From a virus: a DNA stretch of 48,438 bases. Position 1 is the first letter of the stretch, and each line of letters begins with the position of its first letter. Where the stretch lies: IMG/VR virus record IMGVR_UViG_3300021961_000154, positions 1 to 48,438 of that record; one strand, given 5' to 3'. Made by a program: the position numbers and the translations under genes. Under the pieces are notes generated by a model that searched no databases, was not told the origin of the DNA, and saw only the letters and a list, made by a program, of their open reading frames with translations. Positions 9,654-40,061 of the stretch are shown piece after piece.

Positions 9654-9810
9654 GACGCCTGTCGGCGGTTCGTTCTTCATCCCCACCATAGCGCCGTTCA
9701 AAACCAAGGAGGCAGGGCTTATCGAAGCCCTGCGTCTCCACATGAAAGCCAAGGCAACCTTTGGCTTACTGAACGGCAGACATGGTGTTCTGTTTACCCG
9801 CCGCTCATAG
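9619..9810 (+). CDS. 63-residue small phage protein at the convergent junction
   Basis: Begins at ATG 9619 inside the end of the primase gene (35-nt overlap) and ends with TAG at 9808-9810. The pattern, a hydrophobic start, PVGGSFFIPTIAP, a helical middle and a basic GVLFTRR ending, matches small phage proteins with a P-V-G-x-SFF(I/V)P core that I recall from many phages. Function unknown. Its last 17 nt overlap the end of the giant gene on the other strand. Confidence 0.66.
   Translation: MTKIKVYFPWAETPVGGSFFIPTIAPFKTKEAGLIEALRLHMKAKATFGLLNGRHGVLFTRRS
9712..9733 (+). repeat. Nine-base-pair inverted repeat within the small gene
   Basis: GCAGGGCTT and AAGCCCTGC surround a four-base ATCG loop, with a few more pairs possible outside one mismatch. 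It lies 60 nt before the two arms meet. It could end plus-strand transcription, but there is no T tract and it is within coding sequence. Confidence 0.45.
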
Positions 9811-12800
9811 CTGCTTGTTGGAAGTTCTCCGCGATCCGACTTCTGGTCTGGCGCAACTCCTTGATCCGGTCACGCTTCTCAATCGGAGTCATTTCCTTGT
9901 CCGCAATGATGCTACGTTCTGCGGCAGCGAATTGTCCAAGAACTTGTACAAGTTTCCCAGCCATCTTGCCCTTGGCAATCGTGTCGATGTTCTGTTCCAG
10001 ATACGCCTGTGCCTTTTCCGTATCCCCACGCTCCATCATGCGGGCGTAGGTCTTGTTCATCTGCTCAGCTTCCTTCAGCGTATCCATCGCCAAGTCCACA
10101 AGCTCGTTGCCTTCAGCGTTCTTGAACAGCTGGCCCAGCACCGGGTACTTGCTAAGCGTTTTCTCAGGCGCTGCAGCGGCAGACTCCGAACCGGTGAACG
10201 CGCTAACCAGCGCGGCCACAGCCACACCCATCGGGCCAGTGTACCCACGGATCAAGTGGTCAATCTGCTTGGGCGACATACCGGTTGTTTCACCCAACGA
10301 CTTAGCAAGCTCAGACGTACCGTCGCCAAACCGCTGCTCCGGGGCAACAGCAAGGTCACGCGTGCTTTCAATCGGCGCATCGTTGAAGAACGACTTGTTG
10401 GCTTTCAGTTCCAGCAACGGCAGCGCTGCGGTTGGTACAGGCATCGCACCACCGGGGATTGTGTTGATCAGCATGTTTTTGACCGCCTCACGGACTTTTT
10501 TGCCTTCCGGAGAACTGTTGAACATGCCAAGGTATATGCCTTCCCACAGGCCCTTGAACAAAATGCCGAATTCAAACGGTATGGGAATGGCAATCGGCTC
10601 TTCAATATCCGGCAGCTTGATGAGCCAGTTCCGCATGCGCGTCTCCAGCGGCATCTTCTTGTACCAGTCTTCATCACCTACCATAGATGCGTAGAGCAGC
10701 GTGGAGAAACCCATGAGCACGCCAGATGCCCACAGCTTTTTCTTCATCTGCAGCTTGTCTTCCATCAACGACTTGCCGCGCAGTCCTTGGTACAGGGAGT
10801 GCAGACCGACAATTTGAGCGTTGAAGAACGGGATCATGTGCGACAGGTAGCGCAGTCCCGGCGACAAGCCTTTGCGGTTGTATGGCATGGCCGTGATGGT
10901 CATGTACTCAGCGTCGCGCTCATTCAGACCTTGCTTGATGTAGGAGTCAAACAACATCTTGCGCACAGCCGCGTCGGCGCTTAGTGCACGGGATTCTTGC
11001 CATGCCATCGCAGCGTGGATCGGGCCTTGACCTTTCAGAATCTGACGACGGAACTGCGCCACATCTTCCATGTTGCCGGTAAACATCTGACCGCTGACAA
11101 TGCCCTTACCCTGCAGCTCTTCCATCATTTTCTTACTGTTGACATAGTTCTTCATGCCAGACAGTACGTTGATAGTATGGCTATAGCTGTTGCCACGGGT
11201 AGCACCCATCGCCAGCGAGTCTTTAAACAGCTGGTAGTACGGGTACAGCGGGTTGAGCGTTACACCCTTGCGAAGAACTTTGGCTGGCAGCGCCAGCATC
11301 TTGAGCCAGTCCGGAACCGTAATTGCCACGCCTTCCAGACCTTTAGCCAACAGGTCTACCGGGATACCTTCAAACGCTGTGCCCTCAGTCTTGAGCACAA
11401 TGTGCTTGTCCTCGCCCTTGTCTTTAAAGCGCAGCACATCCGCAGCTTGCGGACCGGGACCATTGTGGATGCCGTACTTCTTGCCACGTGCGTCAACCAA
11501 CCCTAGCTTGTTCATAGTGAACGCAGCGTTCTTGATTGCCAGATTGCGCAACGACATATCCGTCAACAGCAGTGTGTTTTGCATAGAGCTGGTGAAGTAG
11601 TCAAGAATCTGCTCATCCCCACCAACAAGTTTCTGCAAGTGCGGAGAATCTTTTAGGTTGCCTACTTTGACCGGATGCGCCGGATCAAGGAACAGCTCCA
11701 GTACCCCGTCACGGGTAGCGCGGTAGTACGGGATGTAATCACGCTTGCTACGCATTTCTTTTGCAGCTGCCGGAGTAATTGCTCCGCTTTGCTCAAGGAA
11801 GTCGATCAGCCCTTTGTTGTAGGCGTTGTAGTCAGCCCGAGCATCATCCAGCACCGCCTTGACTTCCTTGTTGGCGCGTATCGCTGCCACCGCATCTTTG
11901 ATCAGCGCGATCTTGTCCGGGCTGTACTGCAGCTTGTTGTAGCCTTCCACTTCGCCACGCAACGACGCCATGTACGCCGTGAACAAACGGTTCGCACCTT
12001 CAGCGTTGAATCCCATCTTCAGCAGCGGCTTTAGCTTCTCGTCCACAGAGCGCAAGCTTGGGCCTTTCTCAGCAGCAATTGTGTAGACACCGGGCTGCGT
12101 TTCAGACAGCTTCAGGTTGCCGACATACGCGCTGGCCGAGGCCATCGGCAGCAAGTCCAGAGACTTCTGGAAGTAGTACATCATCTGCATACCAGCGTTG
12201 CGGTCGCCCATGTTCTTGGCAAGCTCTTCCCATGCAGCCAGCTGATCTACGTACGTTACCTTTGCGCCAAGCAAACCGGTAGAGCGAATGCGGTCAGCCA
12301 AACCCCTGCCTTGAGCAATGATCTTCTGGTCAAACTCCTGCACCTTTTCAAACCCAGCAGGCATCTTGGCTGCGCCAAACCGGAACGCCGTCTCTCCATT
12401 GGGGCTGGTGTACACACCAAGGCGGCTGGTGGCAAGGTCACGCTCAGCTTGCTTGATCAGGTTGTAGATGTACTTCGTGTCTTGCTTGACCAACGAGTCC
12501 AGACCAAAGCGTTTGAAGAAGCCGCGCACCGCGCTAACAATGTCTTTCACAAACTGCTTGACTCGATCAACCATGCCGGGGGCAACGCGCCGCCCTTCCG
12601 CAGCGTGGGCAATCATCTCGCGCACAACAGCCATGCGCTGGTCTTCAATCGACATGCCACGATCTTTGGCTTCCTGCTGAGTCTGAGACACTTGGGAATA
12701 CACCCCCAACGCTTCTGCCAACTCATATACGTACTTGTCGCCTTTGGCAAACAAACGGTCAACCAGCGCTTTCATTTCTTTCGGGCCAAGCACCGTGTCC

Positions 12801-15800
12801 ACGCCGTAGTGACCAATCAATTCGTGGGCAAACGTCTCTTCCAAATCCTGCACCGTCTTGTGGTGCTCACCAATAACCAGCACCGAACCGTCCGGAAACA
12901 CAGCGCCCTTCAGGGTAGCCGGGTCCATACCTTGCTGCTCCAAACCGCGCATCATGGCGGCAGGTATCTGCTTGGGCGTAGCGGCGTAGACAAGGTTGAT
13001 GCCTTCCGGCAGCTTGGCTTTCACTCTGTCAGCAACAGCTTGCGCTTCCTTGGTGTCTACGCCACGGTCTGCGCTGCTAGCCTCTCGACCTTGAATGTTG
13101 CCATGCTTAATGTAGTCAGCCGCTGCCATCGAATCGTGCTCTGACACATCAGGGTCCGTAAGGAAGTCTTCCGGAGTCTTGGCTTTGCGACCACGTTTTC
13201 TCGTTTGCTCTTTCTCAGCACGCTGTTCTTCGGAACCAGTTTTAAACGGCGCACTACGAGAGATTGGCTTGCGCTCAGCTGCGGCCAAACCACTACGCAC
13301 AGCTTCTGCTTGCGCAGCTAAAGTTTCTGCGGCGGGTGCACGGAAAGTTGTTTCCAGTGTGTAGCCACGAGCGGCAGCGTTCTCTTCCAGCTTGGCGATA
13401 CGTTCGTTCAACGCTTTGCGCTCAGCATCGCGGGTTTTGCGGGCGCTATCGGTCAGGTCTTCTTTCAAACTAGCCATCACCAATCGACGGCGAGCAAGCA
13501 ACTTGTTGTACAACTGCTGTGCGGCGTCTTGCTGTTTTTCCGTTGCGGTTGGTTTTTGCGCTTCTTTCGCTACGCCAGCAACTTCTGTCTTTTTGCTCGG
13601 CACAGTGATAACCGTACGCGAGCGAAGCGTGTCGATCTGATCTAACAAATCAAGACGCTTGCTGTTCAGGCGACGTTGCGTAGCCGACAATCCTGCTGGC
13701 GTAGCGCCGCCACGCATAGACTGTTTTTTATCCAAACCAAGCTGCGCACCGATAGCATGCACCTCTTGCTTCTTCTCTTCAATCTCTTTCTCAATACCGG
13801 CTAGCTCCGCATTTTCTGGAGCTTTTTTAACAAGAGCGTCTATTTGATCCAACAGATCAAGACGTTTGCTGTACAGAAGGCGCTGCGCCGCTGACAACCT
13901 TGCTGGCGGAGGTGCTCCACGCATAGCTTCTTTTTTGTTCAGCTCAAGCTGCACACCAAGTCTATATGCCTCGTACTTTTTATCCTCAATCGCCTTTTCA
14001 ACAGCTGACAGCCCCGTAATTTTCGGAGCTTTCTTGACTCGCACCGTTTCGGTAGTTACCGTTGTTTTCGATATAACGCGTGGTTCAACGGCTTTATCCA
14101 GCTGCTCAGCCAAAGAGTCTTGGCGCTCAGTCACAGCTTCTGCGGCATTAGATTCTTGCTGCTCAATCAAACTCTGCAGCTTGGTCAAACGCTTTGCGCC
14201 AGTAGCTTGACGCAGCATGTCCTCGTACCGACGCAGCAAATCAACGGCGAACTGCAGCTTCTTGTCTGCTTTGGCAACAGTGGCTACGTACTTTGGATCA
14301 GAAATAGCTTCCAACAGCGCTTGCTGACCTTCAATTTCTTTGGACAGCTTTTCATACTTAGCCGCTACATCAGCGCTAACACCAGCATCAGCAACGTCGG
14401 GCAGCAAACCACGACGTGCTTTTTCCAAAGCAGCAATCACATCTCGGCTAGTTTTTATCTCTTCATTAATCTTTTGCTTAACGTCTTTCAGGCGTTGAAG
14501 AACAACTTGCTTTTGCTCTTCCACATATACAGTACGCTGCGCTGCCAAGTCTTTACTAGACAGCTTGAACATGTCGGTTATATCGGCTGTGCCCGGACGC
14601 GGTCCTACCTTGCTCTGCTTTAGCAAACGGCGAACTTTTCCATCCAGTTCTTTCAAAAGGCTGTTGTACTTCTGCCCTTCCACCAACAACGCTTTCTTTT
14701 TCTGCAAGTCGTCCGTTGTCTCAAACTGTTTCTGTAGACGACGCTGTTCATTAGCGTACGTATCCGCTTCATCACGCATCTCTTTGATGCGCTGGTCTAT
14801 GTCAGCCTGTTGCTGCTCTGCAGTAACTGCGGGTTTGGTTTCTTTAGGCGACGGAGTAAGCGTAAGTTGGGGCCGTTCTCCTTTGACGACACGACCTTTA
14901 GGCGCTTCTTTGGTGGGGAACGCCAGCTTGTTGGTCACATCCGCTACGAAACTGCGCAACCCTGCCAGCTCACCTGTACGTTCGTTGGCAATAGTCATAC
15001 CGCGCTTGATCACATCCTGACGCGGACGGAGCGCTTTCATTTCATCGTACAGTTTCTTCAGCTCCGATGCCGGGGCTTTGCGTGCAATGGCTTCGTTGAT
15101 GGCCGTTTGCAGTTCTTCCAAGCGTGCTTGCTGTGCTTCAACGACATCTTTTTTGCTACGGCGCAGTGCCCTTAGCTCCCGCGCTATCTTCCTTATTTCT
15201 GAAATAGGCGCTCTGCGTTTAAGGGCTTCATAAATAGCGGTTCGTAATTCCAGTTCTTTACCAACAGCACGAGTTTTTGCGTGATCAACCAAGGTCTGCA
15301 AACGAGTCGTAATAGCTTCTGCAGCTTTTAGTTTCTCATCCGTAGTTGCTGCCGGACGATCAAACTCTTGCCGCCGATAATCAGCTTCCTTGATAGACGC
15401 ATCAACAATGCGAGCAATTAACCCCGATGCTTTACGCCGTGCAGTCTTGCGGGTAGAGCCGGTAAACTCCCCCTTGCGCAAAGAGTCAATGATGTTGGCC
15501 AGATCAAACAGCGCTGCTTCACGTTCTTTGGCTTGCTGGTCTGCCAGATACCGAGCGCGTTGTTTTTGCAGGCCGGGGTCTTGTGTTTGTTGAGCGTATT
15601 CCCGCAGCTGTTTCAAAACCGACAACGACGCTTCAACGCCCACCAAACGTTTACCGTCCGCAGTCAGCACCGGCTGACCAGCTTCATTCTCCGTGGTCAG
15701 CTCAAGGTTGGGAAACTCTGTTTTACGCTGTTGCTCCAGCTCCGCTATGCGGGCATCCAGTGCTTTAATGGCAGCATCGGCTTGCCGTTTGTCGTTCAGG

Positions 15801-18163
15801 TTCAGGCCACGGTTATGCTGCAGGTCAATAAACGACGTATCAAGTTTGGTTCCAGCTGCTTTACCAAACTTTTCTTGCATGAGAGCGTTGGCTTCTGCCG
15901 CCAACGCGTCGTTGTTTGTTTCTCGGCCAACGCGATATGCTTCCCGCAAATTTTCTTCAGTAGCGTAGGTGTCGTTGGTCACAGCCTCCAGCGCAACCAT
16001 TTGTTCTTGCTGCAGTGCATCTTCCGGCGCTGTACGTGCAGTTACTGCAGCTTGTTCTTTCTGATCACGGAGTTCTTCTTGCCGTGCAACACGGGCAGCG
16101 CGATCTTGCGCACGTTCCTCATCAGTCAGCAGAGAAAAAGCGGAGTCAGGAATGTCTAGCCCCAACAGCTGCTGCGTATCTTTAGTGATGATGCCGTTGT
16201 CAATCGCCCGTTGCTGTGTGGTCAGGAATGTACGCGTTTGCCCTTGACGGGGGCTGATTGCTTTCATTTCAGCATACAAAGCTTGCAACTTTTCAGAATC
16301 ATTTTTCTGTGTTGCTTTAGCAATTTCTTTTTGTATTTTGTCTAGCCGTTCTTTTTGTGCTGGAGTAAACGTAAATTCGTTCATAGCACGACGTTGCCCA
16401 GCAAGAATAGACTCCAGCGGTGCAGCTTTAAGTAACTGCTGCGCCTGCTCACTGGTTTCGTCCAACTGCATATCGGCAAAGCGCTGTTTGCGCTCAGCAT
16501 TCCAAGCGTCCCTAGCACGCTGCACTTTTTCTTTTGCCAGCGTATCTTGGTAGTTCAATATCTCTTGCGAAGCTTGATCTTGCGGCTGCGCGGCAAACAT
16601 GTCCGGCTGGAAGTACTGGCCTTGAACAGCCTCTGCTTCCTGCTCATACCGGGCACGCATCTGCTCCGGATCAAACAACCCACCCTGCCCAGTCGCTGCT
16701 TCTTGCTGAGTGCGGGCTTGCTGCAGCTTGGGGTAGAGCTTCTGAACGGTATCAAAGTCACCCTTGTCCGCAGCTTTCTGAACAGCCCGCTCTAGCGCTG
16801 CTACTTGCTTGGTCAAATCTTGCGGCCCTTGCACCGCAGTCTGCATATCTTCTTTGGTGAACCCAACATCCTTAGACTGCTTGGCCAACGCTGCAACAGC
16901 GTTCTTCAGAAAGTTGTACTGCGGCGTCAGCTTGGCAACCGTTGCCATGTCGCCTTTTTCCGTAGCTGCCTGCATCCTAGCGCCCAGATCATCAAACGCT
17001 TGACTGGCACGACGATAGGTATCCAACACACGCGGACGCGATTCTTCCTCTTCCCGTTTGGCTTGTTCAGCAGCTTCACGCTGCGCGGTCGTAGGCAGCG
17101 GGGTGTACGCCCCAGCCACTTCACCAAACAGATCAGGTTGCGTGCCGCTGGGCAGACCTTGAATTGTTTTCTGGCGCTCGGCAGCTTGTTCTTGCTGACG
17201 CTGTTGTTCCTGCTGAAGAATCTGTTCCTGTATGCGTCTGGCGTTATCCAGTTCGCTAATTTGTTCTTGTGCTTGGCCGCGTTGGCGGTATGCAAAACCA
17301 CCACCCATCGGACCCGTAGCCGCCACCGTGCCAGCAATGGTGTTGATGTACTCGCTCTTGGCTTTGTCATCGGTCAAGGACAGACCAGCTTGATAGCGCT
17401 CAGCAGCTGTCTCAAGGAGTTCGGTCGGCACTTCACTCAATACAGATTTGGCAGCGCCTGTGGCAACGGTACGCCCCGCGCTGCGAGCAGCCAGTTCTCT
17501 GGCAACAGCTTCACCCGCTTTTGAACCAGCCTTACCAAGCCCCAACGCAAACCGGTCAACAAGAAAGCCAAGCGGTGCGGTGGCAGCAGCGGTCAGCGCT
17601 GCTTTGCCGGGTTCCAGTTCTTCGGCGCGTTGCTTTTCCGCAGCCTGACGCTGCATGAACGAACCAAGTTGCTGCAGTCCATACGTACCAATACCTGCCG
17701 CCAAACCACCAATCGGGCCTGCTGCCGCCGTACCGTATGCACCCGCAGCCAGTGGACCAGCCATGCTTGGGGCGGTCTGCAGCACCTGTTCGCCAATGTA
17801 CGCTGGGACTTTACCCAGCATTGAACCAAGACCTTGCGTACGGTAGATGTCTTGCAGCTGCTCGACCGTTAGTCCTTGAGGGCGTTTAGCTTCTTCTGCA
17901 GCTTCGCGCTTAATGCTCTCCATCTGGCGTTGAGCGCCTTCAGTGTCTCCAATAGCCGCACGTGCACCCAGCCCAAGACCAGCCAACGACTCAAAGGGTT
18001 GCTCAATACCGCGCATGGCCGCACGACCCATGCGCTCAACAAATCCTTGGCCTTTGCCGTACAGTTCCGGAAACCGTTCTTTAGCGCGAGCAAGTGCTTC
18101 TTCATCCGACAAACCCTCCGGAACCCGAAAATACTTTTTATTTGGCAGCTCGATAAGGGGCAT
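9794..18163 (-). CDS. Giant (2789 aa) polyvalent internal virion-type protein with HELIGH zincin motif
   Basis: Probably an internal protein carried in the capsid and released into the host. The N-terminus has LPNKKYFRVPEGLSDEEALA, usual for large phage virion polyproteins. Residues about 100-290 contain Gly/Ala-rich hydrophobic stretches that might insert in membranes. Residues about 300-1650 are mostly charged helix and coiled coil with repeats. HELIGHYG at 1780-1787 is a zinc metalloprotease-like motif. The last 700 residues resemble the large polyvalent protein C-terminal domains (LPD38-like) in my recollection, with FFNAQIVGLHSLYQG and PIPFEFGILFKGLWEG. AGGAG precedes the ATG. A tape measure is less likely, since no long-tail genes are present. 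Confidence 0.85.
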   Translation of the reverse strand: MPLIELPNKKYFRVPEGLSDEEALARAKERFPELYGKGQGFVERMGRAAMRGIEQPFESLAGLGLGARAAIGDTEGAQRQMESIKREAAEEAKRPQGLTVEQLQDIYRTQGLGSMLGKVPAYIGEQVLQTAPSMAGPLAAGAYGTAAAGPIGGLAAGIGTYGLQQLGSFMQRQAAEKQRAEELEPGKAALTAAATAPLGFLVDRFALGLGKAGSKAGEAVARELAARSAGRTVATGAAKSVLSEVPTELLETAAERYQAGLSLTDDKAKSEYINTIAGTVAATGPMGGGFAYRQRGQAQEQISELDNARRIQEQILQQEQQRQQEQAAERQKTIQGLPSGTQPDLFGEVAGAYTPLPTTAQREAAEQAKREEEESRPRVLDTYRRASQAFDDLGARMQAATEKGDMATVAKLTPQYNFLKNAVAALAKQSKDVGFTKEDMQTAVQGPQDLTKQVAALERAVQKAADKGDFDTVQKLYPKLQQARTQQEAATGQGGLFDPEQMRARYEQEAEAVQGQYFQPDMFAAQPQDQASQEILNYQDTLAKEKVQRARDAWNAERKQRFADMQLDETSEQAQQLLKAAPLESILAGQRRAMNEFTFTPAQKERLDKIQKEIAKATQKNDSEKLQALYAEMKAISPRQGQTRTFLTTQQRAIDNGIITKDTQQLLGLDIPDSAFSLLTDEERAQDRAARVARQEELRDQKEQAAVTARTAPEDALQQEQMVALEAVTNDTYATEENLREAYRVGRETNNDALAAEANALMQEKFGKAAGTKLDTSFIDLQHNRGLNLNDKRQADAAIKALDARIAELEQQRKTEFPNLELTTENEAGQPVLTADGKRLVGVEASLSVLKQLREYAQQTQDPGLQKQRARYLADQQAKEREAALFDLANIIDSLRKGEFTGSTRKTARRKASGLIARIVDASIKEADYRRQEFDRPAATTDEKLKAAEAITTRLQTLVDHAKTRAVGKELELRTAIYEALKRRAPISEIRKIARELRALRRSKKDVVEAQQARLEELQTAINEAIARKAPASELKKLYDEMKALRPRQDVIKRGMTIANERTGELAGLRSFVADVTNKLAFPTKEAPKGRVVKGERPQLTLTPSPKETKPAVTAEQQQADIDQRIKEMRDEADTYANEQRRLQKQFETTDDLQKKKALLVEGQKYNSLLKELDGKVRRLLKQSKVGPRPGTADITDMFKLSSKDLAAQRTVYVEEQKQVVLQRLKDVKQKINEEIKTSRDVIAALEKARRGLLPDVADAGVSADVAAKYEKLSKEIEGQQALLEAISDPKYVATVAKADKKLQFAVDLLRRYEDMLRQATGAKRLTKLQSLIEQQESNAAEAVTERQDSLAEQLDKAVEPRVISKTTVTTETVRVKKAPKITGLSAVEKAIEDKKYEAYRLGVQLELNKKEAMRGAPPPARLSAAQRLLYSKRLDLLDQIDALVKKAPENAELAGIEKEIEEKKQEVHAIGAQLGLDKKQSMRGGATPAGLSATQRRLNSKRLDLLDQIDTLRSRTVITVPSKKTEVAGVAKEAQKPTATEKQQDAAQQLYNKLLARRRLVMASLKEDLTDSARKTRDAERKALNERIAKLEENAAARGYTLETTFRAPAAETLAAQAEAVRSGLAAAERKPISRSAPFKTGSEEQRAEKEQTRKRGRKAKTPEDFLTDPDVSEHDSMAAADYIKHGNIQGREASSADRGVDTKEAQAVADRVKAKLPEGINLVYAATPKQIPAAMMRGLEQQGMDPATLKGAVFPDGSVLVIGEHHKTVQDLEETFAHELIGHYGVDTVLGPKEMKALVDRLFAKGDKYVYELAEALGVYSQVSQTQQEAKDRGMSIEDQRMAVVREMIAHAAEGRRVAPGMVDRVKQFVKDIVSAVRGFFKRFGLDSLVKQDTKYIYNLIKQAERDLATSRLGVYTSPNGETAFRFGAAKMPAGFEKVQEFDQKIIAQGRGLADRIRSTGLLGAKVTYVDQLAAWEELAKNMGDRNAGMQMMYYFQKSLDLLPMASASAYVGNLKLSETQPGVYTIAAEKGPSLRSVDEKLKPLLKMGFNAEGANRLFTAYMASLRGEVEGYNKLQYSPDKIALIKDAVAAIRANKEVKAVLDDARADYNAYNKGLIDFLEQSGAITPAAAKEMRSKRDYIPYYRATRDGVLELFLDPAHPVKVGNLKDSPHLQKLVGGDEQILDYFTSSMQNTLLLTDMSLRNLAIKNAAFTMNKLGLVDARGKKYGIHNGPGPQAADVLRFKDKGEDKHIVLKTEGTAFEGIPVDLLAKGLEGVAITVPDWLKMLALPAKVLRKGVTLNPLYPYYQLFKDSLAMGATRGNSYSHTINVLSGMKNYVNSKKMMEELQGKGIVSGQMFTGNMEDVAQFRRQILKGQGPIHAAMAWQESRALSADAAVRKMLFDSYIKQGLNERDAEYMTITAMPYNRKGLSPGLRYLSHMIPFFNAQIVGLHSLYQGLRGKSLMEDKLQMKKKLWASGVLMGFSTLLYASMVGDEDWYKKMPLETRMRNWLIKLPDIEEPIAIPIPFEFGILFKGLWEGIYLGMFNSSPEGKKVREAVKNMLINTIPGGAMPVPTAALPLLELKANKSFFNDAPIESTRDLAVAPEQRFGDGTSELAKSLGETTGMSPKQIDHLIRGYTGPMGVAVAALVSAFTGSESAAAAPEKTLSKYPVLGQLFKNAEGNELVDLAMDTLKEAEQMNKTYARMMERGDTEKAQAYLEQNIDTIAKGKMAGKLVQVLGQFAAAERSIIADKEMTPIEKRDRIKELRQTRSRIAENFQQAAMSGG
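13625..14020 (-). repeat. 69-residue tandem duplication inside the giant gene
   Basis: Residues 1382-1444 and 1451-1513 are clear copies at a 69-residue (207-bp) offset. Both carry a charged start, an MRG centre and the shared SKRLDLLDQID end. The two DNA copies differ at many silent and replacement sites, so the duplication is not recent. Confidence 0.8.
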
Positions 18164-18172
18164 CCCTTACTC

Positions 18173-20020
18173 CTACTCAATGATGTCGCGGGGGTGTACT
18201 CTGGAGTCAGGTATCTGAATTGATGGCGCAGCTAGAGTTTTTATACCTTCACGTTCAGCCAATGTTGCTTCAATAGCGGTTGCTCGTTCACGCAACCGGG
18301 CACGTTGTGCTTGCGGCAAACTGATATCCGCCATTTGTATTTTTATAGACTCAAGCATAGAACGAAGGTTTTGACCACTTTGTTCAACACGACTTCTTTC
18401 CATTGCTGCGTCATGCCGCAAGTCATCACGACGCCCTTGACCAGCCAGCACACCAATATGTTGTCTACGCCAAGCAGCTTCTTGATCAGCAATATACCTT
18501 CTCATCTTTATAATTTCTTCGCCCTGCGTTTTTTCGTTCCACAGACCCTTTTCTTTCAGGTCAAGTTCACGTTGCTTAAACAGCTTTTCGGCTTCAAAAC
18601 GTGTAGCCTCAGCCGCCAATTTCTCAGCGTGTTGGAACATGTCAACAGCCATCTTGGAGTTACCTTGCGCCAGCTGTGCCTGTGCACCGAGCATGTTTAT
18701 CTCGGCTCCAATCATGGCTTTCTTGTCCTCACGGTCTTCTTTACCGTAGGCTTGGGTCAGCTCAGCAATCTGGCCCAGCGCAGAACCACGGGCAGCGCCC
18801 GAAGTAGTGCCTGACTGCAGCAATGCTTGCGCAGCCTTCAAGGCCATCACACCTTTACGTTCAGCACTGCGGGACTGTTTTTCTTCTGCCGTAGGCGTCA
18901 TCGTCCGCAACAGCTCAGTCATTTTGTCCATATACGGCTGAGTACTACCACTGATTTTGCGCATTGCACTTTCATAGCCGGTGTCGGCTGGAGCAGCACG
19001 CTCTGCGGCGGGGGCAAGCGTGGTAATACCAGTGGCAGGAGCAGCTTCCGTGGTGGCTGCTTTGTCAGTCATAAGATCAAGAGCGTCTGGCGTTGGTGCA
19101 GGATTGGCTTCCATTTGCACGGGAGCTTCAACACGAGGGCGTGCCGGACGCGTTGCTGGCTCGGGAGCCGAAGGAGCATTGCCAACAAGACGCGGGTCTA
19201 CGTAATTTTTGCCACGGTATCCGGGTTCAACAGCAGCTCGGCGTTGTACAGGTTTATCTGCAAGCGCTTCTTTTTCACGATCAGCCAACCCAGTCAAGTT
19301 TGCCAAATAGTCTGTAACATTTTGCGTTACACCGGTAGCTCTCATTACCGGCTCTGCAAGTCCGTATGACGTTAGGCCAACAGCAGCAGGACCAGCTAGG
19401 GGCGTTGCCGCTGTTAAAGCGCGTGCACCCAAACTACCTAAACCGCGCAGTCCAGCCATAGTTGCCGACTGACCAGATACCTGCGGAAAAAACCTAGACA
19501 GCGAACTGGCAGCACTTGGACCACCGGCAGCTTCTGCAGCCACCGCTTGTTCCGCAACAGACGCGGGGACCCCTTGAGCAGCAAACTGTGCAATCCTTTG
19601 ACGCGTTGCATCAATAACCCGTTGCCGAGAAACGTCTGGATCAAACGGAGTACGAAACAATTCACCTTGCGTACCACCCGTCTGAAAGTGGCGCACATCG
19701 CCACCCTCGGCAAACCCAGCCACACCACCATCCGGAATCGCTCCGGCTTGCTGAGCACCGGGAGCTTGAGCAATACCCATGTCTTCGGGCATCTGCGCTT
19801 GCTGCAGCATGCGGTCTTTAATGCTTGGTTGCTGTAGTTCCTGCTGGGCCTGCACGCCCTGCATGGCAGTCTTCTGTTGCATCCGTTGTTTCAGGACGGT
19901 CAATGCTGTGGGTTGATCTATCTCGCTGGGCTGACCACGCAAAATTGCCTGCAGCTGTGCAATAGGCAGACGCATCGCCAGTTGATACTGGGCCTCCGGG
20001 GATTTCATAGCGCCAATCAT
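18173..20020 (-). CDS. Putative internal virion protein, 615 aa
   Basis: Function unrecognised; judged an internal or ejected virion protein from position and composition. The first 90 residues are helical and Gln-rich. PDGGVAGFAEGGDVRHFQTGG occupies 96-116 and holds the shared aromatic-A-x-GG motif. Residues about 180-220 are Gly/Ala-rich and hydrophobic. A Pro/Ala-rich linker at about 270-340 precedes a long helical C-terminal half (to about 590) likely to form a coiled coil. The start codon overlaps the stop of the previous gene as TAATG, and the giant gene begins 10 nt downstream. Confidence 0.75.
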   Translation of the reverse strand: MIGAMKSPEAQYQLAMRLPIAQLQAILRGQPSEIDQPTALTVLKQRMQQKTAMQGVQAQQELQQPSIKDRMLQQAQMPEDMGIAQAPGAQQAGAIPDGGVAGFAEGGDVRHFQTGGTQGELFRTPFDPDVSRQRVIDATRQRIAQFAAQGVPASVAEQAVAAEAAGGPSAASSLSRFFPQVSGQSATMAGLRGLGSLGARALTAATPLAGPAAVGLTSYGLAEPVMRATGVTQNVTDYLANLTGLADREKEALADKPVQRRAAVEPGYRGKNYVDPRLVGNAPSAPEPATRPARPRVEAPVQMEANPAPTPDALDLMTDKAATTEAAPATGITTLAPAAERAAPADTGYESAMRKISGSTQPYMDKMTELLRTMTPTAEEKQSRSAERKGVMALKAAQALLQSGTTSGAARGSALGQIAELTQAYGKEDREDKKAMIGAEINMLGAQAQLAQGNSKMAVDMFQHAEKLAAEATRFEAEKLFKQRELDLKEKGLWNEKTQGEEIIKMRRYIADQEAAWRRQHIGVLAGQGRRDDLRHDAAMERSRVEQSGQNLRSMLESIKIQMADISLPQAQRARLRERATAIEATLAEREGIKTLAAPSIQIPDSRVHPRDIIE

Positions 20021-21114
20021 TACGCACCCTCCATCACTTGGTACAGCGCCAATTCAGCCAAACCGCTGCCCATGTCGTTCTTGACCACGCCGCCCTTCTT
20101 ATACGCTTTGATTGCCCCGCCTTCTTTGCTGCCTTTGAATAGGTTGGACAGACCGTACGCGCCAAGACCATAACCCATAATCTGGTTGGCCGCGCTGGGC
20201 GGTGCTTGGTAGATCGACTGGGACTGCTGCGTCAACGGCATGCCGCGCAGAATGTCTGACATGAAGCTGAGTTGCTTGTACGGGTAGTTCTGCTGGTTCA
20301 GGAAGTCCTGATACGCTTGGCTCAGATATTGTTGCTGCTGAGCTTGTTGTTGAGCGCCTGCTTGCTGCTGTGCAGCATTGATGCCCATAGCCTGCTGGTA
20401 TTGAGTTTGCCCAAGCTGACCCAGCGTAGCGGCAGCAGCGCCTGCTTGACCAAGCCCTTGCAATCCGAGGTTTGCACCAAACTGTTGTGCTTGTTGGGCG
20501 CGATCAAACGCATTCTGATAACCCTGACCAATCGCCTGATTCATGGCTATGTTCTTGTTGCGCTCGTTTTCAGCTTGCATCAGTGCTTGACGACTTCCGC
20601 CAAACGCACCAGCAGCAGTGGCCCGACCTTTTTCCATCTGACCGGTGATGTCGTACTGACGCTGCATTTCTTGCAGCTGGGGTTGCAGCGCATTCTGAAT
20701 GTAGGGTGACATGTACGCCTGTTGTGCGTACGGATTGGTTGCCTGCTGTTCGTAGTTACGTCCAGCCATCAAACTGCCAATACCCGTCGCACCAGCCAAA
20801 GCAGTGCCGGTATCAAGCTGACCAGATGGGGTAGCCTGCCCAAGGTTTTGGAACGCCTGTTGCTGCATCGGCGTGAACTCAGCAATCCGCTGCCCTTGGT
20901 ACTGTTGATAAGGGTTTTGACTGATGTCAGTTGTGGCTTGCGCCTTGCCAAGCAAAGTTTCAACGTATGGCTTAGCGTATTCAGGGATGCTGGTCTGCGT
21001 GACGTTTTGCGTCGTAGGAGCAGCTTGCTGTTGCTGTGGAGCAGGGCTATCGTTACCAAAGTGCAGTAAAAAAGCTTCGCCCGTCAGCAGTTTTGTGAAC
21101 CAACGAAAAATCAT
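20020..21114 (-). CDS. Gln/Ala-rich virion-associated protein, 364 aa
   Basis: Unrecognised as a named protein but of a type common in environmental podoviruses. It begins with a short aromatic segment (MIFRWFTKLL) and a poly-Gln patch. IPEYAKPYVETLLGKAQ near residues 40-60 and AAGAFGGSRQALMQAE near 170-190 follow. The remainder is rich in Q, A, G and Y and is probably helical. Near the C-terminus the chain turns basic with KEGGAIKAYKKGGVVK, where GG pairs fall at 332-333 and 341-342. ATGA overlaps with the preceding gene and TAATG with the following one suggest translational coupling. Confidence 0.75.
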   Translation of the reverse strand: MIFRWFTKLLTGEAFLLHFGNDSPAPQQQQAAPTTQNVTQTSIPEYAKPYVETLLGKAQATTDISQNPYQQYQGQRIAEFTPMQQQAFQNLGQATPSGQLDTGTALAGATGIGSLMAGRNYEQQATNPYAQQAYMSPYIQNALQPQLQEMQRQYDITGQMEKGRATAAGAFGGSRQALMQAENERNKNIAMNQAIGQGYQNAFDRAQQAQQFGANLGLQGLGQAGAAAATLGQLGQTQYQQAMGINAAQQQAGAQQQAQQQQYLSQAYQDFLNQQNYPYKQLSFMSDILRGMPLTQQSQSIYQAPPSAANQIMGYGLGAYGLSNLFKGSKEGGAIKAYKKGGVVKNDMGSGLAELALYQVMEGA

Positions 21115-21557
21115 TTCAGCACCTCGGCTTTGTAATCGGCGTAGCGCTCAGCCACGACCGCTTTCCACATTTCAGGCAATACCTCTTTGGCCTTCTCAGG
21201 TCCAACACAAACATGCACAGCGTAAGCAATGATGTTGCCTGCTGCGTAGCGAAGCGTGTGGGCAATCTCTAGCCCGTGTTCATCTTTGTCCTGCTCAAAC
21301 TTGTTGGCTGTTTGGTACGCCGATACCACCGTCAACCACATCGGCAACACTGCTTGCTGAATCTGCTGGTAGAACGGATTCGCTGGCATGTACGCCAGAC
21401 AAATCAAGAACGCATTGTTTATGTCGTCTTGCGATACAGGCTTGTCCCTATCAATCAAGTCATCCCACGTATGCGCCAAGTCCACAAACATACGGTAGAG
21501 ATTCAGTGCATCCTGATTGCCGCCAAACCATTCCAGTTTTCCTTGGCTATCAATCAT
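21111..21557 (-). CDS. Hypothetical 148-aa protein in the internal-protein block
   Basis: A compact, mostly helical protein with many aromatic residues, for example LYRMFVDLAHTWDDLIDRD near the N-terminus and AVLPMWLTVVSAYQTANKFE in the middle. No transmembrane segment is evident and no family is recognised. Its ATG overlaps the preceding TGA, and its own end overlaps the next start. Tight coupling to virion genes on both sides suggests a structural or assembly role. Confidence 0.72.
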   Translation of the reverse strand: MIDSQGKLEWFGGNQDALNLYRMFVDLAHTWDDLIDRDKPVSQDDINNAFLICLAYMPANPFYQQIQQAVLPMWLTVVSAYQTANKFEQDKDEHGLEIAHTLRYAAGNIIAYAVHVCVGPEKAKEVLPEMWKAVVAERYADYKAEVLK

Positions 21558-22927
21558 GCAGGCATAAGCCTTTCAGCGTTGATTTGTTTGCCTTGCTTGG
21601 GATTGCCCGTTCGTGCTTTTCGGACTCGATCCATCATGGTGTACAGCCTCTTTGCACCTGCATCGGTCGAACCATTGCCAAGGTGAGACACCACATCAGC
21701 CGGAATTACAAACTCACCATCCGCCAGTGCAGCGCGTTGTGGGGTTTCGCCTTTGATCACCGCCGGAATATCGTCGGACATACCGTCTCCCGGCCCACGC
21801 AGAAGCTTACCACCAGCAGCGTATTCAGGCAGGGCGGCAATGCCTCCAGCAGCCATGCCCTCCGCGCCCGTGAACGGGTTGATCTTCGGGCCATAGCCGT
21901 CCACCACCTCTTGGGAATTTGTGGCTGGCAGGGTGGCGTAGGAGGACTTGCTGATGTTGGAGCCGGGGTAGTTCTGGCTCAGGTCGAGCGGCAACGACGG
22001 TGAGGGCACTTGTCCGCCAGCGGCAGCGGCATAGATAGGTTGTGCGGTGTATCCCTGCCCGGTGAAATACGGTACTTTTGAGAAACCAAATTGTGAAACT
22101 TGTCGTTGGGCTTCGGGGTCTACCTGTCCGACAGTGTACTGATAGGGACGGATGTTGCCTTTGTTTTGGGCGGCTGCGTTGGGAGCCAACGTATTTTGCT
22201 TCAACATGTCCGGAATAAACGGGGAAGCAATTGTTGCTACTCCTCCAAGACCAACTTGCCCGTATAGATTTTTTGCTGCCGCAACCGGATCAGACACAAA
22301 CTGCCCCAAACCTCTAGCCGCTGCTTGCTGCGGTGAAGTATTAGCTAACGCTGCTTCAGACGTTCTTGCCAGTTCAGCCACTTTGGGGGCACTAAATTCC
22401 GTAGTACCTAGCTGGACATCGACCGGTCCAGTCAAAGTATCAACTCCGCCAATAGTTTCGTACCCTTGCAGGGGGTTAAACCGCAGCGCATTGCTCATAG
22501 CTTGGGGGGACGCAACAGCTTCAGGACCAATCAGTTTAGCCACTTCGCTGCTCTGAACTTCGTTGAGGCCCATGTTGGCCAGTCCTTGGCCAAGACCAAA
22601 CCCACCGTACGCACCCAGTCCGGCCATGAGTCCTTTTTGCAAACTGCCAGACGATACCGCGCCCAAACCGCCAACCAGAGCAGCCGCACCAAGGCCAGAT
22701 TCCACAAGACCAAATCCAGCCGGTCCAAGGGCAAACCCAGCGGCAATGGGTAGCAGCTTGTCAAGAAACCCAGCCTCCGGCAGACCGGTCTTGGGGTTGA
22801 TGGTCAGGGAGCCGCCGTGGGCCATAGCCAATGCTTGAAGGCCATGCACTTCGCGGGGGGTCATATGGACGAGCATCTTGTCGTTGCCCCGCCCGAGCGA
22901 GGCCAAACCTTGGGCTACATGCTGCAT
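21554..22927 (-). CDS. Virion-associated protein with GPGDGMSDDIPA C-terminal module
   Basis: A 457-residue protein. The start at 22927 was chosen because GGAGG lies five bases upstream of that ATG. The N-terminal third has Gly/Ala-rich hydrophobic helices (residues about 60-130). The C-terminal 97 residues contain MAAGGIAALPEYAAGGKLL, then GPGDGMSDDIPAVI, LADGEFVIPADVVSHLG and NGSTDAGAKRLYTMMDRVRK. I recall this last block as strongly conserved in environmental phage proteins, of unknown function. It sits between the tail hub genes and the internal proteins, consistent with a tail-tip or ejected protein. Confidence 0.78.
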   Translation of the reverse strand: MQHVAQGLASLGRGNDKMLVHMTPREVHGLQALAMAHGGSLTINPKTGLPEAGFLDKLLPIAAGFALGPAGFGLVESGLGAAALVGGLGAVSSGSLQKGLMAGLGAYGGFGLGQGLANMGLNEVQSSEVAKLIGPEAVASPQAMSNALRFNPLQGYETIGGVDTLTGPVDVQLGTTEFSAPKVAELARTSEAALANTSPQQAAARGLGQFVSDPVAAAKNLYGQVGLGGVATIASPFIPDMLKQNTLAPNAAAQNKGNIRPYQYTVGQVDPEAQRQVSQFGFSKVPYFTGQGYTAQPIYAAAAGGQVPSPSLPLDLSQNYPGSNISKSSYATLPATNSQEVVDGYGPKINPFTGAEGMAAGGIAALPEYAAGGKLLRGPGDGMSDDIPAVIKGETPQRAALADGEFVIPADVVSHLGNGSTDAGAKRLYTMMDRVRKARTGNPKQGKQINAERLMPA

Positions 22928-22961
22928 AACAGCCTCCAAACGGCGAATTTTGTCAATAATA

Positions 22962-23876
22962 TCATGTGGGTAGAGCAGACACAAAGGACAGCGTGGCTAT
23001 GACGGACGCTGTGGAAGGACGGGTTGGACCGGTGGTTGCGGCGTAATACTGAAGGGAAACTGTGTCCAAAGTTGCCGACCACCACAGCTCTACAAACTCA
23101 TTGGCTTGCAGTTCAACGAAGTAATTCCAGCCAACAATTTCATGCGCCTCTTCCCCAGCGCTGGCGCTCTTTCGGGCAGGAATAGAGACATAACCCGACG
23201 AACCTACGATGTCTGTTCCGTTACCCGTTGAACCCTTGCGAAGCCAGATACTCATGTCTTGTAAAGCGTTATCTGTATTTTGGAACTGCCCAGACCACTG
23301 CAAGTTGTAGATGCCGGGGTTCTCCACCGCAATTTTAGATTGGACGGTTCCGGTGATAGTCAGGCTGGTTTGTTCTTGAGAGACGCTGACAACATATGAG
23401 CCGACACCGCCAGCCGTGCCAGAGGTCTGTGAAACAACTTTTGTTCCAGCCGTAATCGACCCGCCGGTTAGCGTCATGCCAAGGTAGATCGTGCCAGAGG
23501 TGACCGCAGTAACAGTCAGTACAGTTCCAGCACCGGGAGGTGTGCCATCGTCAATCGTGCCCGTGAACACCGCTGTGTGTGAACCAAGACTTACCCCGTT
23601 TGCATAATCAGTGGTATCAAAGCGCATGACCTGCGCGGTGTTTGATGGGATTGTCTGGTCAGTTTGATCTTGAAACGCCCCGTACGGAAACCGGATGAAC
23701 TTGCCTCCACCAGCACCAGACCCAAGCAGAGTCTGCATGGCGTTATCAAGCTCGTTGAAATAGATACGAAGCTGATTATTGAGCTGATCCTGATAGCGTT
23801 GCTCATACTCCGTCGTTGCCACCGCAAGGTTGGGAGCCTTTGGCGGGCGCAGATAGTTGGTAATGATCGTAGCCAT
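22962..23876 (-). CDS. Tail-associated structural protein, 304 aa
   Basis: N-terminal residues 1-60 are helical and probably a trimerisation or attachment segment (EYEQRYQDQLNNQLRIYFNE). Residues about 100-175 form a Thr/Gly/Val-rich beta module (TVLTVTAVTSGTIYLGMTL) of a kind repeated in many phage adhesion and structural proteins. The C-terminal 120 residues are a beta-rich domain with WLRKGSTGNGTDIVGSSGYV. It starts as the hub gene ends (shared base 23876), so it is probably a tail component partnered with the hub. Confidence 0.72.
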   Translation of the reverse strand: MATIITNYLRPPKAPNLAVATTEYEQRYQDQLNNQLRIYFNELDNAMQTLLGSGAGGGKFIRFPYGAFQDQTDQTIPSNTAQVMRFDTTDYANGVSLGSHTAVFTGTIDDGTPPGAGTVLTVTAVTSGTIYLGMTLTGGSITAGTKVVSQTSGTAGGVGSYVVSVSQEQTSLTITGTVQSKIAVENPGIYNLQWSGQFQNTDNALQDMSIWLRKGSTGNGTDIVGSSGYVSIPARKSASAGEEAHEIVGWNYFVELQANEFVELWWSATLDTVSLQYYAATTGPTRPSTASVIATLSFVSALPT

Positions 23877-32719: not shown

Positions 32720-33195
32720 AGTATCAACCACCTTTGACCAGATGCGATTGTGATCACAACACCAGACGCAACCGTGACCGGGCCAACGGACATTCCGTTT
32801 GTACCAGTTGCAATCGTTCCAGACACTGATGCCGTCGTTCCATTCAACACAATGGCTTGAGTGCTGGTTCCACCGCCAAGACCTTGCACAGTCCGCTCTG
32901 CTGGAGCGGTAACAAACACATCCTTTGTGCCAGCACTGAAGTTGACTGCGCTACCTGCGTTGCTCGATGCCAGAATCGTGGTTCTGGCCAACGTGGTTCC
33001 GGAAGACGTGTACGTCCCGATGCCAACTTCCCATTCGTTGGCAGTCTGGTGCGCGATGGTGTAATAGGTGGTATTACCGTTGCCAATGACTGAGAAATTC
33101 TGATAGCCAGTTGGCGCAGTGCCACTGAGCGTAATCGTGCCTGTACTCGACGTGGTCGTCGTGTCCTTTACTCGATCTGCAAGAATCAGGGCCAT
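32716..33195 (-). CDS. Tail fibre-type virion protein with ADRVKDTT start
   Basis: A 159-residue protein. The segments ADRVKDTTTTSSTGTITLSG, NEWEVGIGTYTSSGTTLART and NFSAGTKDVFVTAPAER are a well-known arrangement in fibre and baseplate-type proteins of aquatic phages. The C-terminal part continues as a short shaft (SGTIATGTNGMSVGPVTVAS). Starts within TAATG of the repeat-protein gene and ends within ATGA of the next, so the three genes are coupled. Confidence 0.75.
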   Translation of the reverse strand: MALILADRVKDTTTTSSTGTITLSGTAPTGYQNFSVIGNGNTTYYTIAHQTANEWEVGIGTYTSSGTTLARTTILASSNAGSAVNFSAGTKDVFVTAPAERTVQGLGGGTSTQAIVLNGTTASVSGTIATGTNGMSVGPVTVASGVVITIASGQRWLIL

Positions 33196-34256
33196 TAAAT
33201 CACCGTGTCATCAATAAGCTGCCATCCGGCAGAAACATCATTACTTATCACCGTCCAACCAGCAGTTTCTGCACTATCCACCAACGCCCAGTTTGCAGTC
33301 TGCAAATCGTCAATTAATTTCCAATATATCGCTGTCACGCTGCCAGCAGAACCTCTTGCCGACACACCACTCAGGGCGATACTGACAGACCTGCCAACCG
33401 ATCCAACACTGCCCACCGCCGCATTGCCGGTAACCGCATTTACTCTTATCAAGCTTCCGGTCGATCCGGAAGCAGACACGCCAGTCAAACCAACCGTCAG
33501 GTTTGCCCCGACACTACCCGCAGAACCTAGTGCTGCATCGCCGGTCACAGCGACAACAGAACCAGCTATTGCTACAACTGTTCCAACTACACCGCTTGCC
33601 GCTACACCGGTCAACCCAACTACTGTTTCTGGGCCAACTGTTCCAGCAAAACCTAAGGCAATGTCGCCAAGCTCTGCCTCACTGATGGATGCCGACAACG
33701 AACCAACTTGACCACTTCCGGCTACGCCTGTCAGAGCAACCGTCGAAGTCATTGAGACGACTACAGTTCCAGCACTTCCACTTTCCACTACGCCGGTCAG
33801 GGCAGCACTCGAACCGGATGTTGCAGTAACAGTTCCGGCTGACCCGTTTGCTGCATTCCCTGTCAAAGCAATCGAGAAGGAGGTTGCGGGGGTTACCTGC
33901 CCAACTGCTCCTGATGCGTCAACTCCGGTCAACGCGAAATCTTTGTTGGGCGTGGCCGACCCAGCCAAACCACTTCCAGCAACTCCAGTCAGAGCAACAG
34001 AGAGACTTGGCTCTACCGTTCCAACCACGCCACTTGCAACAACACCCGTCAAAGCAGCAGCATTTGTAGCCGCTACCGCACCAACAAAACCACTTCCAGC
34101 ATTGCCAGTCAGAGCAACTGTGCTATCAGATGCAGCCGCAACCGTACCTACAGCACCACTGGCCGCACTCCCTGTTAAAGCTACTGTTACCGTCGTTCCA
34201 GAAGCACCCGGAAGTGCTGCGAACGGAGTTTCAGCGAATGCGGATATCCCGAACAT
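33195..34256 (-). CDS. Tandem-repeat virion protein (14 ALTG repeats, Trp-repeat tail)
   Basis: A 353-residue protein built almost wholly from repeats. Residues about 22-308 hold 14 units of about 20 residues with the pattern V-A-L-T-G-x3-S-G-x2-G-x-V; one unit (ELGDIALGFAGTV) is degenerate. Residues 312-353 hold four shorter units centred on WKLIDD, WALVDS, WTVISN and WQLIDD. The repeats should form a regular beta structure such as a solenoid or an extended fibre shaft. The ribosome binding site is weak. It lies at the head of the fibre block. Function is inferred from position. Confidence 0.78.
   Translation of the reverse strand: MFGISAFAETPFAALPGASGTTVTVALTGSAASGAVGTVAAASDSTVALTGNAGSGFVGAVAATNAAALTGVVASGVVGTVEPSLSVALTGVAGSGLAGSATPNKDFALTGVDASGAVGQVTPATSFSIALTGNAANGSAGTVTATSGSSAALTGVVESGSAGTVVVSMTSTVALTGVAGSGQVGSLSASISEAELGDIALGFAGTVGPETVVGLTGVAASGVVGTVVAIAGSVVAVTGDAALGSAGSVGANLTVGLTGVSASGSTGSLIRVNAVTGNAAVGSVGSVGRSVSIALSGVSARGSAGSVTAIYWKLIDDLQTANWALVDSAETAGWTVISNDVSAGWQLIDDTVI
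33333..34193 (-). repeat. Fourteen degenerate tandem units of about 60 bp
   Basis: The coding repeat of the ALTG protein. Units vary from 16 to about 24 codons and are well diverged at DNA level, so the array is old and under selection for the protein pattern. Confidence 0.8.
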
Positions 34257-39051: not shown

Positions 39052-39306
39052 TCAGCAGTTCCAAGCCCGGAGGCTTTTGTTGATACGGCTATTCGGATCG
39101 TTCGCCGTCTTCGATGAAGTCAGCTTCTTCTTCATCCCGCTCATACGGGCGCAGAACGACTTCTTCCGTGCCCCGCCTTCCGGTTGCGGACGTTTCAGCC
39201 CCGGCTTGCCCGGGTTGGCTGCGTTGTAGGAGGCTCGTCCTTTGGCGTTCAAACCACCAGCAGGATTTTTGCCTTCTTTGCGTTGCCATGCAGGTGTCTT
39301 AGCCAT
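39052..39306 (-). CDS. Small basic protein, DUF6321-like
   Basis: An 84-residue protein: KTPAWQRKEGKNPAGGLNAK, then RKKSFCARMSGMKKKLTSSK and NDPNSRINKSLRAWNC. I recall this order from a family, probably DUF6321, found in environmental phages and some large eukaryotic viruses. Conserved cysteines, Trp and Arg suggest a nucleic-acid-binding or metal-binding fold, unproven. Stop and start overlap with the glycosyltransferase gene as TAATG. Confidence 0.75.
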   Translation of the reverse strand: MAKTPAWQRKEGKNPAGGLNAKGRASYNAANPGKPGLKRPQPEGGARKKSFCARMSGMKKKLTSSKTANDPNSRINKSLRAWNC

Positions 39307-40061
39307 TACGCAGCATCACTCATAGGTGCGTCAACAGGTTTCAACATCGGGTACAGAATCTCATTCCCGAAGTCGCTCTCATACTCATGGACACCCATGT
39401 GACCCAGCTTGATCGTCGGGTCGATCCAGATGTCAAAGCCTTCCGCACGGGCGCGGTCGCAGAACAGGAAGTCCTCGCCAATGTAGCCATCCGGCGTGGT
39501 CATGAAGTCAAAGTAAGCATGCAGCTTCTTGTTGCTGTTGGTGTCCTTGTGCCGCCACTCAGGGTGGTTGGCACGCAGCTTCTCAAACACCTGACGCTGA
39601 ATCATCATGAAGCCGGTGGCGATGCGATGCGCCTTGACCAGACCCCAGCCGTCCATGCTGACCGTGCCTTCTGTGCCATTCACGCCCTCGCCGCCATCGA
39701 GCGACAGGATGTAGACCTTGCCAGCTTTCCGGGCTTGATACGCGCCACCAACGATTGCCTTGCTCTGGTTCCAAGCCATCAGACGGATCACCGAGTCCGC
39801 ATCGAACGTCATGTCCGAGTCGATGAACATCAGATGGTCACAGTCTGACTCAAGGAACTCATACGCAATCAGGTTACGAGCGCGGGATACAACAGAGCAG
39901 CCACAGATGCTGCTGACCTGAATGTGAATCCCATGCTCCAAGACCTTCTGTGCAAGCTGCATCAACGACACTGCCATCTTCAGGCCCACTTTGTGGTCAT
40001 AGGCCGGAAGACCAATCATCAACTTCTTGCCAACAAGATCAAACCCTTTTTGGTTTTGCAC
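39306..40061 (-). CDS. Glycosyltransferase, GT-A-like
   Basis: A 251-residue cytoplasmic enzyme, probably moving a sugar from a nucleotide donor to a virion protein, DNA or host surface. MIGLPAYDHKVG begins the fold. SVVSRARNLIAYEFLES leads to MFIDSDMTFDADSV with the metal-binding DSD at 81-83. GEDFLFCDRARAEGFDIWID then GHMGVHEYESDFG hold the usual catalytic and ligand residues. Starts at GTG; an ATG 14 codons later is an alternative. It lies among virion genes, not in a metabolic cluster. Confidence 0.85.
   Translation of the reverse strand: MQNQKGFDLVGKKLMIGLPAYDHKVGLKMAVSLMQLAQKVLEHGIHIQVSSICGCSVVSRARNLIAYEFLESDCDHLMFIDSDMTFDADSVIRLMAWNQSKAIVGGAYQARKAGKVYILSLDGGEGVNGTEGTVSMDGWGLVKAHRIATGFMMIQRQVFEKLRANHPEWRHKDTNSNKKLHAYFDFMTTPDGYIGEDFLFCDRARAEGFDIWIDPTIKLGHMGVHEYESDFGNEILYPMLKPVDAPMSDAA

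Follow-up and report, generated by a model that had tools for sequence, protein, structure and literature searches.

A giant phage polyvalent protein with a predicted HEXXXH-type metallopeptidase domain coupled to an LPD38 module

The window analysed here is the whole of a 48,438-base virus record. Its late genes lie on the minus strand and run from the terminase and portal genes, through the major capsid protein (MCP) gene, to a giant open reading frame (ORF) that is the last gene of the cluster, and replication-type genes on the plus strand converge from the opposite side. A preliminary description made from the sequence alone had reported a gene of 2789 residues occupying over 17% of the window, and the minus-strand ORF at 9794-18163 (2789 aa, 17.3% of the window) confirmed it. 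The giant gene adjoins late virion genes, as is typical of polyvalent proteins. The coordinates of its parts are collected in Table 1.

Table 1. Position of the giant ORF, its predicted parts and a neighbouring gene in the window
Feature	Window coordinates	Strand	Basis or remark
Giant polyvalent protein ORF	9794..18163	-	Final gene of the minus-strand late cluster
N-terminal module, residues 1-300	17264..18163	-	Gly/Ala-rich, partly hydrophobic, kept in relatives
Variable, charged, helix-prone middle, residues about 330-1640	13244..17176	-	Composition, poor conservation
Predicted HEXXXH metallopeptidase (MPTase) domain, residues 1693-1914	12422..13087	-	Alignment, AlphaFold2 model, N4 MPTase profile homology
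HELIGH, residues 1780-1785	12809..12826	-	Invariant in alignment
E1849 (REMIAH), candidate third zinc ligand	12617..12619	-	Conservation, aligns with the N4 Glu helix
Conserved C-terminal module, residues 2060-2789	9797..11986	-	Conservation in relatives
LPD38 domain (PF18857), residues 2498-2676	10136..10672	-	Pfam, E=4.6e-34
Neighbour gene, DNA ejection protein family (phrog_4287)	20020..21114	-	E=1.6e-22

The MCP matches listed showed 56-72% identity and belong to Pelagibacter, Planktothrix, Roseobacter and other phages. Relatives of the phrog_4287 gene stand beside the giant gene in most of the related loci, and the ejection family of this neighbour supports an internal or ejection context for the giant protein. 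Three further ORFs were noted in the window. The product of 21554-22984 has a C-terminal end of 90 aa that is 56-82% identical in most related loci and a divergent remainder; 33195-34256 encodes 353 aa of ALTGVAASGxVGTV-type repeats, possibly a tail or fibre protein; and 39306-40061 encodes 251 aa with a glycosyltransferase-like look (MFIDSDMTFD) and no Pfam match.

The hydrophobic, Gly/Ala-rich part noticed earlier was found at about residues 1-300 and is conserved in relatives, and a comparison of the N-terminal 315 aa with isolated phages gave no match. This module may have a membrane or ejection role. The stretch that follows (about residues 330-1640), read earlier as coiled coil, is charged, low in Gly and Pro and poorly conserved, which is what long helices would show. 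Inside this divergent middle, residues 787-962 (window 15278-15805) form an island kept in six relatives, a candidate for a functional site or a cleavage region.

The string HELIGHYG lies exactly where it had been located, at residues 1780-1787, and reads H-E-L-I-G-H, that is, HExxxH. A search for HE..H found no canonical HExxH in the whole 2789-aa protein, and membership of the classical HExxH zincins was rejected on this ground. One HExxxH would be expected 0.01 times in a protein of the same composition; this low expectation, together with conservation in the viral relatives compared, makes the motif more than a chance occurrence. Searches with the domain gave 4 and then 23 viral loci, whose proteins measure 1959-3235 aa save for one 5'-truncated ORF of 1174 aa, and HE[LAVI]xGH is kept in all relatives from these loci. 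In an alignment of 22 sequences H1780, E1781, G1784 and H1785 do not vary at all and E1849 hardly varies, the exceptions being two sequences with inserts (L019 and L020). In both, some 60 residues after HELIGH, an insert of about 155 residues separates the two metal-ligand helices. Loss of the Glu helix in them was considered and found to be only apparent, as the insert has displaced it and RE(M/L)xA is kept afterwards. The insert opens with a twin-arginine-like string (TRRKLLKGAAAA; TRRRLLQAAGAA). From this pattern of conservation, H1780, H1785 and E1849 would be the zinc ligands and E1781 the general base.

The His, Glu, His and third Glu are common to the proteins of 21 further viral loci and five named phages; the preliminary description had staked its reading on such conservation, and the His, Glu and His are indeed kept in the viral relatives compared. 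In the named phages (PTXU04, Pondi, Vibrio D274, Achromobacter CF418P1 and Aeromonas phiARM81mr) HExxxH is followed 55-67 residues later by [RE]ExxA. One scan of cellular genomes found no relative of the domain.

Residues 1685-1935 were modelled with AlphaFold2 (pLDDT 84.9, pTM 0.81). In the numbering of the model, HELIGH falls within helix 87-121 and the RE of REMIAH within helix 155-170. The DSSP string of the model gives a three-strand core flanked by one N-terminal and two C-terminal helices, the same order of elements as in the described MPTase core (PMC5512222). By this order E1849 stands in the second C-terminal helix, where the third ligand of a polyvalent MPTase is placed. Hence the zincin fold foreseen around residue 1780, with a third metal ligand, has its counterpart in the zincin-like order of the model and in the candidate E1849.

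Known models and solved structures gave little. No Pfam or NCBIfam model covers the peptidase region; the Pfam model MPTase-PolyVal had no match in the record, but the control was likewise without a match, so this result carries no weight. Foldseek with the domain model matched no solved structure, and the solved structures searched by sequence and fold gave only marginal zincin alignments below significance. Among the predicted viral structures of BFVD, Foldseek matched polyvalent phage proteins with probability 1.0. A profile of the domain compared with the HEXXH MPTase of the N4 virion RNA polymerase (vRNAP) relatives scored 64 (probability 95.7), while 60 column-shuffled controls scored at most 21 and the reversed profile 17.5. 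With the motif masked the score was 45.5, and the Glu helices of both families align. Profile comparison likewise gave 97.4 for the HEVGVH-type domain set against the type of the window and 97.8 for LPD38-linked HExxH domains against N4. Conservation, the predicted structure and the N4 profile homology together support a zincin-type metallopeptidase of the HEXXXH polyvalent kind; of the zincin motif first proposed, the zincin-type domain stands, with the motif in its HEXXXH variant.

A C-terminal domain like those of large polyvalent proteins had also been proposed, and Pfam recognised LPD38 inside the conserved C-terminal module (Table 1). LPD38 and the MPTase share one polypeptide, as in phage-type polyvalent proteins, and Pfam and NCBIfam recognised no second enzyme domain beside the MPTase. 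LPD38 is present in all four of the named phages scanned (PTXU04, D274, phiARM81mr and CF418P1). Ahead of LPD38, D274 carries helicase and methyltransferase domains, phiARM81mr ddrB-ParB and a methyltransferase, and CF418P1 an InPase; Pfam recognised no such cargo domain in the window protein. The model of the C-terminal module (pLDDT 60) was too poor for a fold search.

A profile scan with the C-terminal module reached at least 418 viral loci, of which the best 80, those nearest to the window protein, were examined. The tally included the 76 proteins with at least 350 aa upstream of the module, and the last motif upstream was counted, whatever its surroundings and without a distance limit. 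In these best 80 of at least 418 loci, HExxxH was found in 46 of the 76, HExxH in 28 and neither in two; an upstream motif is thus carried by 74 of 76 LPD38-module proteins, against about 0.9 expected by chance. In most relatives about 990-1040 aa separate the motif from the end of the protein, and the preceding part varies from 952 to 2204 aa in complete ORFs. At the sequence level, then, the peptidase is a near-fixed partner of the LPD38 module. The motif type switches about 14 times on a tree of the module with its branches taken as drawn (shuffled mean 19.2, minimum 15), from which the HExxxH and HExxH versions appear to alternate often.

Two variants of the arrangement were observed. A large polyvalent protein of Planktothrix phage Pag-Yong1 (L034) has an N4-type HExxH at residue 1717 before the same C-terminal module, with 1055 aa from HExxH to the end, about the usual distance, and an extra HExxxH string at 559. 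In the subset of LPD38 proteins with a HEVGVH-type motif, several loci (L225, L237, L249 and similar ones) have a domain of several hundred residues inserted between the MPTase and the LPD38 module.

The domain order, the conservation of the putative ligands, the homology to the N4 MPTase, the near-obligate pairing with LPD38 and the late-operon position are all established at the level of sequence. The explanation that best suits a near-fixed MPTase-LPD38 unit behind variable material is one of delivery and processing. We therefore favour a giant ejected polyvalent protein with a zinc peptidase that most probably cleaves, in cis, the polypeptide to which it belongs, and give this reading a probability of roughly 0.55. 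Judging by its position, the ejection-type neighbour and its kinship with polyvalent proteins, the giant protein most probably travels inside the head and would leave it together with the DNA. Its N-terminal part, possibly membrane-active, would be followed by the long variable helical middle and by a C-terminal unit, about 1000 residues long, that joins the HEXXXH zinc peptidase to the LPD38 module. The LPD38 region would serve packaging or docking, and the peptidase would cleave in cis, at packaging or soon after ejection, separating the C-terminal packaging or docking part from the remainder. No cleavage site was identified in the giant protein. Autoprocessing has been proposed for such MPTases by Iyer et al., with attack on host proteins as the alternative (PMC5512222). 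Since the N4 vRNAP, which has a related MPTase, enters the particle uncut (PMC5512222), cutting may come only after ejection, or never.

More tentatively, the counts of the two motifs may be read beyond this protein: two separately maintained versions, an N4-like HExxH and a HExxxH, could have been exchanged repeatedly before an LPD38 module that needs a zinc peptidase in cis, and ejected phage proteins would then have in it a general, modular means of processing themselves.

The host-directed alternative of Iyer et al. (PMC5512222) would have the injected peptidase attack host proteins in trans and so serve as an effector for take-over or counter-defence. The gene of the related protein gp25 of PTXU04 appears in a list of those that, when expressed, were toxic to E. 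coli or disturbed infection (PMC11879866), but the listed effect does not point to the MPTase, and a giant membrane-active protein might produce it unspecifically. Effector cargo should come and go, yet all but two of the 76 LPD38 proteins keep an MPTase motif. The near-obligate pairing with LPD38 favours action in cis, as optional cargo would be lost more often, and we regard the effector role as unlikely. We hold it to be unlikely in like degree that the domain, while keeping the zincin fold and perhaps binding metal, cuts nothing and has a structural or docking part in the C-terminal unit. The N4 region that holds a related MPTase is required for encapsidation in a protein packaged uncut (PMC5512222), which agrees with such a role, but the general-base Glu is invariant alongside the ligands, a pure structure would not need E1781, and the two motif versions are each kept intact.

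Processing of other virion proteins in trans during assembly, in the manner of a prohead protease or of internal-protein processing, would suit the place of the giant gene among the structural genes of the late cluster, and the timing fits. The peptidase nevertheless pairs with the LPD38 module of its own polypeptide and not with any other protein, and the phages DSL-LC04, HTVC023P and CRP-902, whose MCP is homologous, have shorter, motif-less proteins of 676-1068 aa (one of them annotated 'DNA transfer protein') at or near the end of the late cluster; this reading seems rather improbable. That HExxxH is a chance string in a helical protein without a zincin fold would agree with the lack of a Pfam or NCBIfam model over the region and of any significant match to a solved structure by sequence or fold, but is very hard to reconcile with the chance expectation given above, conservation in all relatives compared and an N4 MPTase homology that beats all shuffles even with the motif masked.

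The domain and the protein are both of kinds already described; what appears to be new, within the literature consulted, is how strongly the MPTase and LPD38 are coupled and how repeatedly the two motif versions alternate. The window protein offers a concrete, testable case for the role of the commonest domain in polyvalent phage proteins, and the near-obligate partnership with LPD38 tells against the role of an optional effector. Giant proteins have to cross a narrow phage tail, and cleavage, whether in the particle or once they are ejected, would be a direct answer to the question of how they do so.

Zincin-type MPTases with a HEXXXH motif were described in phage polyvalent proteins in 2017 by Iyer et al., who distinguish 12 clades of the domain (PMC5512222). 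The window protein resembles theirs in the motif, in the Glu in the second downstream helix, in the helix-strand core and in being a large multidomain phage protein near late genes with LPD38 (PMC5512222). It is unlike those of their proteins that carry several enzymes in that only the MPTase was recognised, with no Pfam model over it. The six-residue HEXXGH-type motif also recalls M49 dipeptidyl peptidase III, as a resemblance of the motif only. Membership of M49 was rejected, as neither sequence nor fold matched the solved structures, which would include M49. Active M49 members with a five-residue HEISH or HELMH are also reported, so that both lengths occur in one family, which makes an alternation of HExxxH and HExxH chemically plausible.

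The vRNAP of N4, itself a giant protein of the virion, was placed above the portal and enters the host by injection (PMC4496689), which favours an ejected protein here as well. This protein, gp50, shares with the window protein its giant size, its position at the far end of the late cluster, a profile-homologous MPTase and a C-terminal stretch of over 1000 aa beyond that domain, and differs in its HEXXH and its RNA polymerase, neither of which the window protein has. An N4-type virion RNA polymerase was rejected, as the vRNAP Pfam domain is present in N4 gp50 and absent from the window protein, and the C-terminal regions of the two showed no significant relatedness.

A distant homologue is gp25 of PTXU04 (PTXU04_00025), with 22% identity over residues 1733-2779, which cover the MPTase and the whole C-terminal unit. 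It shares HExxxH and LPD38 with the window protein and differs in its length of 2197 aa, in reading HEIIVH and EEVLALAAE, and in its N-terminal part, which showed no similarity in the comparison. Peptide fingerprinting of PTXU04 virion bands, only some of which were assigned, named gp7, gp10, gp11 and gp12 and not gp25 (PMC6563267), which counts against the favoured reading. The gp25 gene is classed as 'Fit', its knockdown by CRISPRi strongly lowering plating, so that gp25 is needed for plaques to form (PMC11879866), and PTXU04 is an E. coli phage with the same arrangement that can be grown and mutated in laboratory strains.
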